Positions 38,824-63,921 of a stretch of 64,000 bases of DNA are shown in pieces (the stretch's first letter is position 1; every line of letters begins with the position of its first letter). Source of the stretch: a virus; the IMG/VR virus record IMGVR_UViG_3300023174_000053, positions 107,028-171,027 of that record; one strand, 5' to 3'. The notes under the pieces were generated by a model, which ran no database searches, was not told the origin of the DNA, and saw nothing but the letters and a program-made list of their open reading frames with translations. Position numbers and translations under genes: made by a program.

Positions 38824-40704
38824 TTATCTTGTATAATTTCCGTTTACGTAACTTGATGTGACCGCATATTGTGTTGCTGAAGTATTTTCACCAGATGTAA
38901 TTACATCCTCCAGAACACTTACATTAAGTTTAGTTGTATCTAGTTCCAAGTATATATCCTTTAACGCAAGGACATCATTTGACTCTGGTATCGCTTGAAT
39001 TTCAATCCCAGCAGTACTAGTAGATGATGTGAATATTATTGTAGTTAATTTAATTTCACCTCTCATATAATTTACGGTTCCAGCATTATTGTTTACAACT
39101 ACAGGGGAACCATCAACTAATTTAAAGAAAAATATAATTCCAGTTTCATTAGTTTTTGGAACATCACTCATATACAAAGTTCCACTAGTATCTTTTACTG
39201 TAAACCCAGTTGATTTGATATTATATCCTCTGCCATCAGAATTTAATTTCTTAATATGAAATTGATTTCCAAAACATATTTCATACGTTGCTAATTTATT
39301 ATATTCTGGTTGTAAATCTCTTCTAATTTTAATTTTAGTAATATTGGAAGTAATGGATGTACTTGTATTGTCAATCAACGAAGAAACTTTACTATATTTA
39401 AATCTACCACCAAAACTATTCAACTCGGTTGATTTGCTATATGATTCTAAATTTTTTATAACTCTTAGTTGTAGATTGTTTGAATCTATTGTAGTACTTT
39501 TATCATAATAAACTGTTGTATCTATTTCAACATACATATACTTCAAATCAATAATTTCTGGTTTAATCCCAGCAATTGAATATTGTTTTAAATCTTTTTT
39601 AATACTATCTTTTGTAATTTGAGAAAGGAACTTACCTTTTCTTGGTTTGATTGAAATATAAACTTTACCATACTCTGGAGGATCTAACTCATCCCCACCA
39701 TATGCCGTCACAGTATCCACATTTGGAAACAGATATGGGATTAGTCCTTTATAATCATTTGCGGTTACTGCACGGTATTGTGAAGCATATACTCTAGGTC
39801 CAAGATACTTAACTGAATCAATTGATTCAATATCATCACCGTTTTCGGATGATTGAATGGTAGTTAATAAGGAAATATTGTTTGTGATTGATGTGCTATT
39901 ATTATCAGTTAAAATACCAGAAAAAGTAAAGTTTGCTGCTCCATTTGCTTCTTTTCCATTTGTAATAATATAACTAATAAAAATAGTACTTCCACTAATT
40001 GGTTTTCTTCCTATAATATCATCACCAAATAAAATTTCATATTTCTCATCATCTATTTCTTGTATTAGAAAAATCCTTGAATTTTTATTTACTTGAAAAA
40101 TATTTTTATATGATTGATATTTTTCTGCAATAACACCAGTAACTTTTACACGAATTGTAGACGAATCTACACCAGTATTTGGAATTGTAAATCTTTGATT
40201 TGTTTGTGATTTATCTACTGTATATGACTTTGTTAAATATGAACCTTCATAGACATCAATACTTGTGAAATTTGCAAATCCATTATTATCAACGACTACT
40301 GTGATGTCTTCTGGAATTGAAAATATATAATTACCATTCTCAACAGCACCCAAAGCAACGATTCCTGCTTTTAGAGTAACTGTTTTTGAATTTAACCCTG
40401 TAGTATTGACAGTAAAACTAACCTTTGCCTTTGACGCACTTTTGGATCTGGGGACGTATCCTATGTTACGTGCAAGAGAGACTACATTTTCTCGAAGAGT
40501 TGCACTATCAATAAAGGATTCATTTACTGCCATGTTAGTATTGAAGGCAGTAATATAAGAGTTGTATGCTAATACATCAATTAAACTTGAAAAATTAGAC
40601 CCTTCAAAATCAAAATCCGTGAAATTACTATTCGATCTCAAATAATCCTTTATCTGAGTGCGTAAATCATTAAAATCTAGATTGGTAAAATTATTGAAGG
40701 GCAT
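38824..40704 (-). CDS. 6: Baseplate wedge protein gp6
   Basis: This 626-residue protein matches T4 gp6 (660 residues), the core of the baseplate wedge that forms the ring fastening around the tail hub. The start MPFNNFTNLDFNDLRTQIKD, then LIDVLAYNSYITAFNTNMAV and GRKPISGSTIFISYI are typical of the gp6/J family. Its ATG overlaps the gp25 stop as TAATG, preserving the 25-6 order of cyanophages. Confidence 0.93.
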   Translation of the reverse strand: MPFNNFTNLDFNDLRTQIKDYLRSNSNFTDFDFEGSNFSSLIDVLAYNSYITAFNTNMAVNESFIDSATLRENVVSLARNIGYVPRSKSASKAKVSFTVNTTGLNSKTVTLKAGIVALGAVENGNYIFSIPEDITVVVDNNGFANFTSIDVYEGSYLTKSYTVDKSQTNQRFTIPNTGVDSSTIRVKVTGVIAEKYQSYKNIFQVNKNSRIFLIQEIDDEKYEILFGDDIIGRKPISGSTIFISYIITNGKEANGAANFTFSGILTDNNSTSITNNISLLTTIQSSENGDDIESIDSVKYLGPRVYASQYRAVTANDYKGLIPYLFPNVDTVTAYGGDELDPPEYGKVYISIKPRKGKFLSQITKDSIKKDLKQYSIAGIKPEIIDLKYMYVEIDTTVYYDKSTTIDSNNLQLRVIKNLESYSKSTELNSFGGRFKYSKVSSLIDNTSTSITSNITKIKIRRDLQPEYNKLATYEICFGNQFHIKKLNSDGRGYNIKSTGFTVKDTSGTLYMSDVPKTNETGIIFFFKLVDGSPVVVNNNAGTVNYMRGEIKLTTIIFTSSTSTAGIEIQAIPESNDVLALKDIYLELDTTKLNVSVLEDVITSGENTSATQYAVTSSYVNGNYTR

Positions 40705-41102
40705 TATATTCTAGTTGGTTGTAAAAGAAACTCTATATTTTGAAGAGGAAATGGAAGTCCAACAATATCGTAAGAAATTTTTACATTCAATTCATTTGAA
40801 TCTTCAATCGATTCAACCATTACTTCTTTAACTACAATTCTTGGTTCAAAGTTACTTAATACTGTTTTAATTTCTTCATCAAGTATTGTCGAAACTTCTG
40901 GTCCATTAAGTTCAAATAAAGAATTATCAACAGAGGTTCCCAATAAATTATTGAAGAACCTCTCACCAATACGAGTTCTGATTAAGTTAATAACAGATTT
41001 TTTAATCGCATCCTCATTTTTTAATACAAGAACATCGTTCGTCACTGGATGTCTAGAAAAAGACAAACTAATGTCCTTAAAACTTCTAGAAATACTAAGC
41101 AT
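40704..41102 (-). CDS. 25: Baseplate wedge protein gp25
   Basis: This 132-residue protein is T4-like gp25 (132 residues in T4), a lysozyme-like-fold wedge subunit with no enzymatic role, conserved in all contractile injection systems. Segments SFSRHPVTNDVLVLKNEDAI, LIRTRIGERFFNNLLGTSVD and FEPRIVVKEVMVE include the family EPR core. It precedes gp6 with a 1-bp overlap. Confidence 0.94.
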   Translation of the reverse strand: MLSISRSFKDISLSFSRHPVTNDVLVLKNEDAIKKSVINLIRTRIGERFFNNLLGTSVDNSLFELNGPEVSTILDEEIKTVLSNFEPRIVVKEVMVESIEDSNELNVKISYDIVGLPFPLQNIEFLLQPTRI

Positions 41103-43892: not shown

Positions 43893-44359
43893 AAAAATAT
43901 TTGGGGCAGAATTTTTTTATTTGAAAGACAATTTCGAGCTCGTTTTCGGTCCGTTGTAGGTTAGGGTAGTGTTGCGTTTTTATATACGGGGGGCAACGGT
44001 TTATAATAAGAATACAACAACACAAAATATAACTGTCAAACAGTGCTGTTGTATAAGAATAAACGAACAAGTATAATAGTTTATAATCAGTACTGTTTGA
44101 TTCTTAACTCATAATAATGGGGGGTGGGTATAAACAGCACTAAGTTAGATCGTGTATAAACGAAGGAAAACTGTATAAGAATAAAACAATACTGTGTGAT
44201 TGTTATAACGAACTGTAGATCCTGGTTGGGTAAACGAAGATATTTGTAAAATATAAGATAGGGAGACTACAAGTTAGTACACAGAACTGTGTACAACGAA
44301 TAGTATAGCACTGTTTGATTCTTATGTCAAATAAAGTGGGGGTGGGCACAAATCACAAA

Positions 44360-44398
44360 ACTGTTATATTGTTGTGATATAACTGTTATATTGTTGTG
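44360..44398. repeat. Direct repeat pair, 17 bp, 22-bp period
   Basis: ACTGTTATATTGTTGTG occurs exactly at 44360-44376 and 44382-44398, followed in each case by a near-identical GATATA or CTATA. It is part of the repeat field upstream of the TTTTCCACA cluster and may be an iteron-like element. Confidence 0.8.
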
Positions 44399-44518
44399 CT
44401 ATAAGACGAGCATATACTTATAGTGTGTGTATAACGAAGTGATATAACGAACTGTTATGTATAACGAACTGTTATGTATAACGAAGTCTTATGACGAAGT
44501 GCTATGAATAACGAACAG

Positions 44519-44729
44519 TTTTCCACAAGTTATAACGAACCCTGTGGAGTATAACGAATAGTTTTCCACAAGTTTTCCACAGGTTTTGAATAGTTTTCCA
44601 CAGGGCAAATCTTATAAACCCTTACAAACACTAAGAATACTCATAAACCTGTGGAAAACTATTATGTGGAAAACTAACGACTTGCCCTATAGAAAACTGT
44701 TGCCTCCTGTGGAAAACTATTTTTCCACA
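44519..44729. other. Cluster of eight DnaA-box-like sites (candidate replication origin)
   Basis: Eight exact copies of TTTTCCACA occur in 211 bp. On the plus strand they are at 44519, 44562, 44573, 44594 and 44721; on the minus strand at 44650-44658, 44665-44673 and 44708-44716. The word is one base from the E. coli DnaA box TTATCCACA and, from memory, is the form reported for cyanobacterial origins. Clustering plus the gene-free, AT-rich and repeat-rich setting supports an origin. It could instead be a site for a phage protein that mimics DnaA. Confidence 0.72.
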
Positions 44730-44966
44730 AGTATAATAACTATAAACATCAGCAGTTCTTATACTATTCCCTCCCCCCCTACCCTATAAGTCTACCGCGG
44801 AATCACTGAGTCTTACGAGACACTGTGCCAGTTCTCAAAGTGTCCTGCGTCTCATAAGTCTTACGAGTAACTAGCAAAAAACTCCCAAGACTCATAAGAT
44901 GTATGAGTCTCATGGGTTTCATTGTCAATATGCCCTGTGCCAGTCCTATAAGTGTCTGTGAGGCAC

Positions 44967-44995
44967 TTGACATTTTTTTGTTCTTATGGTATAAT
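44967..44995 (+). promoter_or_regulatory. Perfect sigma70 promoter on the plus strand
   Basis: TTGACA (44967-44972), a 17-bp spacer with seven T's, and TATAAT (44990-44995) match the full consensus. It points rightward, against all genes, into an AT-rich stretch with no plus-strand gene, and then antisense to the operon at 45210-45643. Possible products are an origin primer/activator RNA or an antisense RNA. Confidence 0.75.
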
Positions 44996-45209
44996 GCTCG
45001 CTTAGACAACAAGACCCAGAGGCATTTATAAGAGTATAAAGAGGGTATAAGCATCTTTATAATAACCTTTATATAGCACAGTACAAAACACGTAACTATG
45101 TTTTTTAATACATTTAATTTAATTATGATATGTAACGTAATTGTGTTGTAATTGATAATCTATGCTTATGAGCATGAGGAATAGTGTGTGAGAGAGTAGA
45201 GAGATAGAC

Positions 45210-51023: not shown

Positions 51024-52259
51024 CTATACGCACAACTCTCCTTTTACAAATACAGTATCAATCACACTCTGGAGTTGCTTTGCAATCTTATCTCCATAGT
51101 TATTATTGACGGGAATGGTAATAGTTCCAAAAGGTTTGCGATAAAATGCAAACTCTCCTGCTTTCATCTTACCTTCTTGAATTGCTTTACGGTCATCCTT
51201 ATGAACTCGAATAACCCTACCAATAGTCTGGCACATTTCAATCATAGGAAGATTGCGAAGCATAATGCAATGAGTCAGACCGTGAATACTAATACCCTCA
51301 CTCATAATTGAGTAATGAAACACAATGAGCTTCTTGTCTGGGTCAGCACCAAACTCACTCATTTTCTCAAAGAATACTTCACGAGACACTTTCTGCTTGT
51401 CAATGTAAGCACCGTGCTTGGAAGTGATATGCATAATTGTGTAACCCATATCATTGAGTTGTTGAAGCAAATCACTTTCAGTAAACATAGACCAAATTAC
51501 TTTGGTGCTGGGTGCAGCAACAAGAACTTTAGGTGCATCACAATCAGAAATCTCTGACAGAATACCTACAATGTTCTCTGCATCTACAAATGCAGCATTT
51601 TCTTTAGTGCGAATAGTTTGTGCTTCATAAGGCACAACTTTAGGAGGAATGATACTACCAGCATCAATGAGTTCTTGTGCTGGAATACTGATGATGTTGT
51701 TGCCATAAACATCAGTATTATTCATAGACTCCATACTGTTATTGAACTTCGGAGTTGCAGTGAAGAAATAAGCATTATTTGCAACTGATGAAGTGTGAGC
51801 AATACCCACAAAGTTAGAAGGTTTCACACAATGATGTGCTTCATCAAAATACACAACATCAATCTCAATATCTGATTCATTCACACGACCAATGGAATTG
51901 TATGTGGTGAAGATAAAGTTGTGCTTACCACTTCCGATTGCAGTGTCATTGTATTCTGCAATAACTTCTGAACGTGTAGAGGATTGATGATGTGTTTCTC
52001 CACTGTGGCAGTGCATATAAGCAACATTGAGTCCTTGTAAATATGCTTCAAACTCCGAACAAAGTTGATTTGCAAGCAGAATACGAGGAGCAACAACAAC
52101 AAACGTCATCGGTTCTGTTGCATTCAGAATCCTTTGACGGGCATCTTCCATCATCACAACAGTTTTCCCACCACCAGTAGGAATATAACAGGTGCCTTTG
52201 ATGACTTTCTGCACAGCATCAAGAGCACGTTGTTGATAGTTGAGAAGGGTAAGCATCAT
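51024..52259 (-). CDS. Superfamily 2 DNA/RNA helicase (UvsW-like)
   Basis: From ATG 52259 this gives 411 residues. Motifs are clear: Q-like start TLLNYQQRALDAV, Walker A YIPTGGGKT, motif Ia VVVAPRILLANQL, motif II VVYFDEAHHC, motif III FFTATP, and motif VI QTIGRVIRVHKDDRK. It fits DEAD/DEAH helicases such as T4 UvsW, which remodels replication and recombination intermediates, though it is shorter than UvsW. A TTG at 52265 is an alternative start. It has its own cassette promoter (TACAAT). Confidence 0.88.
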   Translation of the reverse strand: MMLTLLNYQQRALDAVQKVIKGTCYIPTGGGKTVVMMEDARQRILNATEPMTFVVVAPRILLANQLCSEFEAYLQGLNVAYMHCHSGETHHQSSTRSEVIAEYNDTAIGSGKHNFIFTTYNSIGRVNESDIEIDVVYFDEAHHCVKPSNFVGIAHTSSVANNAYFFTATPKFNNSMESMNNTDVYGNNIISIPAQELIDAGSIIPPKVVPYEAQTIRTKENAAFVDAENIVGILSEISDCDAPKVLVAAPSTKVIWSMFTESDLLQQLNDMGYTIMHITSKHGAYIDKQKVSREVFFEKMSEFGADPDKKLIVFHYSIMSEGISIHGLTHCIMLRNLPMIEMCQTIGRVIRVHKDDRKAIQEGKMKAGEFAFYRKPFGTITIPVNNNYGDKIAKQLQSVIDTVFVKGELCV

Positions 52260-52277
52260 AATCAATTCAATACAAGT

Positions 52278-63065: not shown

Positions 63066-63326
63066 TCACCTCCTACGAGTTCTTGTGGATATTGTAGCAC
63101 AACCATATCCACCTCCATAACCATAACCATATCCACCTCCATAAGCATCACCATATCCATAACCATAACCATCACCAGACCCATCCCCATCACCATCTCC
63201 ATATTCATCACCATCACCAAATCCATTACCATATCCATCACCAAATCCATTACCATATCCATCACCAAATCCATATGTATAACCATATACATTACCACAA
63301 CCAACGGGATAAAGGAATTCAGTCAT
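63066..63326 (-). CDS. Tyr/Gly-rich repeat protein, copy 1
   Basis: This 86-residue protein starts MTEFLYPVGCGNVYGYTYGF and then repeats GDGYGNGFGDGYGNG-type dipeptides; it ends CATISTRTRRR. The start is set by AGGAGG 8 nt before ATG, and the whole frame continues without stop, while the same DNA in the other frame would give Met/Val repeats. It is likely low-complexity and possibly aggregating, structural or metal-binding. Function unknown. Confidence 0.72.
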   Translation of the reverse strand: MTEFLYPVGCGNVYGYTYGFGDGYGNGFGDGYGNGFGDGDEYGDGDGDGSGDGYGYGYGDAYGGGYGYGYGGGYGCATISTRTRRR

Positions 63327-63328
63327 TT

Positions 63329-63676
63329 CTAGTGCCTCCTACGAGTTGTTGTTGATGTTGATATTGTGGCATCACCATACCCATAACCATATTCATCACC
63401 ATTGCCATATCCATAACCATATCCATCACCATTGCCATATCCATTACGATAACCATATCCATCACCATACCCATAACCATATCCATTACCATACCCATCA
63501 CCACAACCATATCCATAACCATAACCACAACCATAACCATATCCACCACCATACCCATTACCATAACCATAACCATAACCATATCCATCACCATACCCAT
63601 TACCATTACCATAACCATATCCATCACAATATCCATTACCATACCCATTACCAATGGGATAAAAGTATTCAGTCAT
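63329..63676 (-). CDS. Tyr/Gly-rich repeat protein, copy 2
   Basis: From ATG 63676 this gives 115 residues, MTEYFYPIGNGYGNGYCDGY and long runs of GYGYGNG, GCGYGYGYG and GDGYGNG, ending in SRTRRRH-like basic residues after ATISTST. It is the longest copy. AGGAGG lies 8 nt before the ATG, inside the previous gene's Arg codons. The repeats differ in length between copies, which suggests slippage. Confidence 0.72.
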   Translation of the reverse strand: MTEYFYPIGNGYGNGYCDGYGYGNGNGYGDGYGYGYGYGNGYGGGYGYGCGYGYGYGCGDGYGNGYGYGYGDGYGYRNGYGNGDGYGYGYGNGDEYGYGYGDATISTSTTTRRRH

Positions 63677-63678
63677 TT

Positions 63679-63921
63679 TTACCACCTCCTACGAGTTCTT
63701 GTGGATATTGTGGCATAACCACGTCCATATCCATTACCATATCCATCACCATATCCAACACCGTATCCACCATATCCAGAACCAGATTGATAACCAGATT
63801 TATAATAACTAACAAGTCCATAACCATCACAATCACCATATCCATAACTATTTAAATCACCGTCACCATTGCCATATCCATTACCATAACCATCACCAAC
63901 GGGATAAAAGTATTCAGTCAT
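63679..63921 (-). CDS. Tyr/Gly-rich repeat protein, copy 3
   Basis: This 80-residue protein begins MTEYFYPVGDGYGNGYGNGD and includes a less regular middle (DLNSYGYGDCDGYGLVSYYK, SGYQSGSGYGGYG), then ends ATISTRTRRRW. The less regular middle shows that selection acts on the protein, not only on the DNA repeat. Same ribosome binding site arrangement as the other copies. Confidence 0.72.
   Translation of the reverse strand: MTEYFYPVGDGYGNGYGNGDGDLNSYGYGDCDGYGLVSYYKSGYQSGSGYGGYGVGYGDGYGNGYGRGYATISTRTRRRW

Follow-up and report, generated by a model that had tools for sequence, protein, structure and literature searches.

A DnaA-box array between gp25 and uvsW as a likely component of a replication origin in T4-like cyanophages

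A stretch of 64,000 nucleotides from an IMG/VR viral record (G000; 171,027 bp), corresponding to positions 107028-171027 of that record and referred to here as the window, carries eight exact copies of the cyanobacterial DnaA box TTTTCCACA within 211 bp. Judging from sequence comparisons, we think it rather likely that T4-like cyanophages (Kyanoviridae) have their main early replication origin here, as the counterpart of T4 oriF, and that the array forms the DnaA-binding part of it. These phages probably start DNA copying with help from host DnaA. T4-like cyanophages are abundant marine viruses, and in the literature searched (open-licence full texts) we found no description of a replication origin for them; the array site would provide a precise, testable one for S-PM2, Syn9 and dozens of relatives.

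The array and its internal gap are located as follows.

44519..44729, no strand assigned: exact cyanobacterial DnaA boxes TTTTCCACA, 8 copies, from an exact-word count
44604..44645, no strand assigned: box-free gap between the left arm (plus-strand) and the right arm (mostly minus-strand) of the array, from sequence and alignment

A recount placed the boxes at 44519+, 44562+, 44573+, 44594+, 44650-, 44665-, 44708- and 44721+; the number and the strands (five plus, three minus) agree with the sequence-only reading. The boxes at 44562 and 44573 form a tandem pair with 2 nt between them. The surrounding ~43.76-45.21 kb are gene-poor, with short and unlikely ORFs only. Rfam returned only weak miRNA or snoRNA matches, reflecting the inverted boxes. 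There is no exact copy of TTTTCCACA in the rest of the window, and the whole 171,027-bp record holds 11, of which the three outside the array are each single; the word is thus not dense elsewhere in the phage, a check that the sequence-only reading had proposed. Dinucleotide shuffles of the window gave a mean of 2.2 copies and at most 6, never 8, and in 60 simulated third-order Markov genomes (mean 5.1 copies) no 211 bp held more than two, in agreement with the claim of clustering beyond chance. When all 9-mers of the record were compared, only low-complexity tandem words clustered as tightly as TTTTCCACA or more so. When one mismatch was permitted, the entire window showed no enrichment (34 found versus 41.8 expected), and thus the signal is that of the exact word at this single place. 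The GC skew at four-fold sites along G000 showed no clear inflection, and this test is uninformative. At the end of the record (window ~63170-63870, G000 170196-170900) we observed dense CCATAACCA/CCATATCCA repeats with strong GC skew.

Alignment to the relative L121, which was found by a pattern requiring two boxes and therefore carries a mild bias, showed that all 72 box bases are identical, versus 77% identity for the rest of 44300-44960 (Fisher p=2e-8). The box-free gap is also identical in L121. Boxes on the same strand are spaced by 11-12, 21-22 and 32-33 bp (Rayleigh R=0.61, n=231), and convergent boxes by 13, 23, 35 and 56 bp. These values indicate that the array is under selection and that its boxes are helically phased. 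A second repeat family, poorly conserved in L121, lies alongside:

44428..44559, plus strand: repeat family TATAACGAA with 6 copies in 250 bp, extending from the left into the array

The word TTTTCCACA is the published cyanobacterial DnaA box; boxes of the Cyanothece 51142 oriC were footprinted with DNase I using DnaA domain IV, which bound two perfect boxes 2 nt apart better than imperfect boxes 10 nt apart (PMC4674748). The pair at 44562/44573 has the same 2-nt spacing as the best-bound Cyanothece boxes. We took picocyanobacteria as the presumed host family and centred the family search on the Cyanobium genome L180, one of the few picocyanobacterial genomes reached by a psbA scan. Direct pairs of TTTTCCACA occur in 13 of 81 picocyanobacterial genomes (reversed-word control, 0). 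Within 500 bp upstream of dnaN, 23 copies were found in 13 of 21 genomes, versus none for the reversed word, and TTTTCCACA is the second most frequent 9-mer of these regions. The identity that the sequence-only reading had put forward, a DnaA box of cyanobacterial origins, is thus confirmed both by the published box and by the count in host genomes that it had suggested. Spacings of 11-12 and 20-22 bp, as in the phage, separate the dnaN-side boxes of one of these genomes, G009. The same reading had pictured a host array copied by the phage. Repeats of the DnaA-trio type, TAGTAGTAG, which occur at 11 of 21 host origins, are present in 3 of 160 phage loci and number 0 in the window stretch. With these repeats and the dnaN context both missing, we rejected the view that the phage copied a host oriC.

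A phage-encoded protein, rather than DnaA, could bind TTTTCCACA, the match to the host box being coincidental or mimicry, since such sites could serve any oligomerising protein. We regard this as improbable: the word is identical to that of the dnaN-side origins of the host family, its spacings are those seen in G009, and in phage S-SKS1 TTTTCCACA and two copies of the standard DnaA box variant TTATCCACA are spaced by 21 bp. In addition, the initiator-like C-terminal domain of DnaA (PF08299) is absent from G000 and 21 phages, and was found in control bacteria. G000 encodes its own DnaB-like helicase, loader, primase, clamp loader, split polymerase, UvsX, UvsY, gp59 and UvsW, and with such a set of enzymes the phage may need no host initiator. 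Taken together with the missing domain, this suggests that any DnaA involved would be that of the host, and would serve melting or timing rather than fork progression. The split DNA polymerase gp43 is encoded at G000 84087-85196 and 85891-87366 (369 and 491 aa), 694 bp apart.

The array sits between two landmark genes, which define the uvsW-25 interval:

40704..41102, minus strand: gp25 baseplate wedge gene, left landmark
51024..52265, minus strand: uvsW-like helicase gene, right landmark

We compared this interval in G000 and 23 named phages, 24 cyanophage records in all; where uvsW was not found (e.g. DSL-LC03, S-CAM1), the 15 kb next to gp25 on the corresponding side took its place. The interval makes up 4-15% of each genome and holds 61 of the 125 copies of TTTTCCACA, versus 9.8 expected, and clusters (at least two boxes within 60 bp), present in 14 of the 24 records, all fall inside it. 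Eight of the named phages had been chosen because the array query matched them; among the 15 chosen otherwise, six have clusters (ACG-2014d, S-PM2, Syn9, Syn33, S-SM2 and P-TIM68), again all in the interval; those of S-PM2 and Syn9 are located at ~19.2 kb and ~52.6 kb, respectively. The product of the interval fractions for these six is ~6e-8, which is not a true probability since the phages are related, and the shared position may simply reflect common ancestry of the site. The other ten records, including S-SCSM2R, which infects WH7803, the host of S-PM2, have no cluster of exact boxes, and some of these phages still keep the promoter and AT block described below. DnaA thus cannot be essential throughout the group.

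A blastn query with the whole intergenic stretch matched only one named phage, and queries with short elements were used instead. A three-box pattern found 110 stretches in IMG/VR, versus 0 for a reversed control; of 99 loci newly retrieved, 97 show homologues in cyanophages, and in 48 of 48 clusters with a visible gp25 the boxes lie on its 5' side. This recurrence in dozens of contigs with zero control matches, the mixed orientations and phased spacing, and the perfect retention of boxes between diverged relatives contradict an origin by chance or simple repeat expansion; such a functionless array is scarcely credible, even with other repeats present in the neighbourhood. It is also quite unlikely that the array is a sink which, in the manner of datA, titrates host DnaA and stops initiation on the host chromosome, with an effect that grows with phage copies. 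Its eight perfect boxes do exceed the zero to five held by each host dnaN-side origin, and a phage with its own replisome need not use DnaA. However, titration needs no fixed place, no phasing and no tie to a promoter and AT block, and although most phages hold just two to seven boxes, the uvsW-25 slot is always where they are.

Matches to the array or to its word were also seen in other viral sequences. Two gut or faecal microviruses, MZ089777 and MK496718, match the array (E 1e-5 and 3e-6), one of them in nine places, and microviruses could possibly carry DnaA-box arrays too. The viral contigs L091, L102, L125 and L047 hold 4-6 copies of TTTTCCACA within 500 bp, but homologues of the landmark genes of cyanophages are absent from them; in L125 there is a 15-bp tandem, and L047 also carries TAGTAGTAG repeats.

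To the right of the array, three further features follow one another on the plus strand.

44967..44995, plus strand: perfect sigma-70 promoter (TTGACA-17-TATAAT), the -10 preceded by TG
45000..45095, plus strand: conserved leader of a presumed non-coding transcript, candidate primer RNA
45096..45120, plus strand: conserved AT-rich block CTATGTTTTTTAATACATTTAATTT, putative DNA unwinding element

The promoter is kept in relatives and drives no gene on its strand, and its full TTGACA -35 argues against a promoter of the MotA type. In S-PM2, S-CAM1 and S-RIM44 the -35 (TTGACA/T) is retained and the -10 is not recognisable, so that promoter type may vary. The transcript would start near CTTAGACAACAAG, and its leader is 98.8% identical in L121 over 45011-45090. 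The AT block, 100 nt downstream of the promoter, lies in a segment (45090-45170) in which 81 of 81 positions are identical in L121; the 25 bp starting at 45101 are the least stable of the region, and only 0.1% of the genome is less stable. The AT block is also present in S-PM2, S-CAM1, DSL-LC03 and S-SRM01, as well as in S-SCSM2R and Sf-FS3, both of which have no boxes.

In the clade of the window the boxes do not adjoin the AT block but are found 375-577 bp upstream of it, whereas S-PM2, S-CAM1, S-RIM44, S-CREM1 and many contigs have 2-3 boxes after it, at about +22/+34 or +33/+45. A combined pattern (AT block with a box within 20 bp) matched 32 contigs, and its scrambled controls matched 1 and 0; in most of the contigs newly retrieved in this way, cyanophage neighbours of the uvsW-25 interval are present. 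Some of the loci for which the AT-block matrix is shown had served to train it, which gives weight to this independent pattern scan with controls. The same arrangement bears on the possibility that DnaA, a known regulator of transcription, acts here as a transcription factor, the boxes controlling the non-coding promoter or the flanking operons and the RNA being an early regulatory or antisense species rather than a primer. We consider this unlikely. The boxes do flank a strong conserved promoter, and in some relatives they lie within ~100 nt of it, but such a role does not account for the finding that conservation is highest and stability lowest in the AT block, with boxes adjoining it in many phages, nor for the slot and polarity in common with T4 oriF.

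Another conserved element lies near the other end of the intergenic stretch:

43940..43990, no strand assigned: conserved element with core TGTAGGTTAGGGTAGT

A 61-bp query from it matched 261 cyanophage records, mostly outside annotated genes, and it is also found in phages with no DnaA boxes. Its minus strand reads as a putative late-promoter-like site, TATAAAAA, followed by a conserved 5' leader, CTACCCTAACCTACAA, which would serve the gp25 side.

From these elements we infer DnaA binding, melting and origin firing in the following form. Early in infection, host RNA polymerase would start a non-coding RNA at the 44967-44995 promoter, directed away from gene 25 and towards uvsW, and host DnaA would bind the helically phased boxes as an oligomer. 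Bound DnaA could then help melt the AT-rich block (~45096-45160), aiding or replacing simple R-loop formation, and the RNA, or a primer on the melted strand, would start leading-strand synthesis, to be continued by the helicase, loader and polymerase that the phage encodes. Since some relatives have no boxes, DnaA probably enhances initiation and is not the only route.

Given the uvsW-25 slot, the oriF-like polarity and the box-less relatives that keep the module, the boxes seem to have been added to an origin of the T4 style. We are evenly divided as to whether this is a hybrid origin, kept throughout the T4-like cyanophages, in which host DnaA boxes were added to an ancestral module of the T4 oriF type and the phage depends on DnaA or tunes its start by it. 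The suggestion that the phage departs from T4 by recruiting or titrating host DnaA therefore stands in part: the boxes are of the host type, under selection and in a conserved place, but they do not amount to a simple switch from the T4 strategy. If the hybrid reading is true, a lytic phage that encodes a complete replisome depends on host DnaA, or tunes its start by it, possibly according to the cell-cycle or light state of the host. The data also suggest that the position of oriF outlived the divergence from T4, and that host DnaA, which in cells is coupled to growth, can be drafted into T4-type initiation.

The closest known system is T4 oriF (ori(uvsY), an R-loop origin), annotated at 115321 between uvsW and 25 with its primer RNA running from the 25 side towards uvsW; the minimal origin consists of a promoter and a downstream AT-rich unwinding element (PMC3016281). 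The cyanophage site shares the uvsW-25 position and the order of promoter and AT-rich element, with the same polarity relative to gene 25 and uvsW. It differs in that the T4 promoter is a MotA middle promoter and the uvsY mRNA serves as primer there, whereas the cyanophage promoter has a perfect -35/-10 and its RNA is presumed non-coding; in that T4 oriF has no DnaA-box cluster; and in the orientation of uvsW relative to 25, with uvsY located elsewhere. The dnaN-side oriC of cyanobacteria (Cyanothece 51142, Anabaena 7120, Synechococcus PCC 7942) shares the 9-mer, its clustering in both orientations and the helical spacings, including pairs 2 nt apart, but the phage array is not beside dnaN or dnaA, has no TAGTAGTAG repeats and is attached to a phage-specific promoter and AT block. 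The datA locus of E. coli, which titrates DnaA, is likewise a cluster of DnaA boxes outside oriC, whereas in the phage a promoter and a candidate melting element accompany the boxes, in an origin slot that is conserved. Lambda and P1 oriR are replicons that combine host DnaA boxes with iterons and an initiator protein of their own; G000 yielded no initiator gene, and what the cyanophage is proposed to share with them is the recruitment of host DnaA by a mobile replicon.
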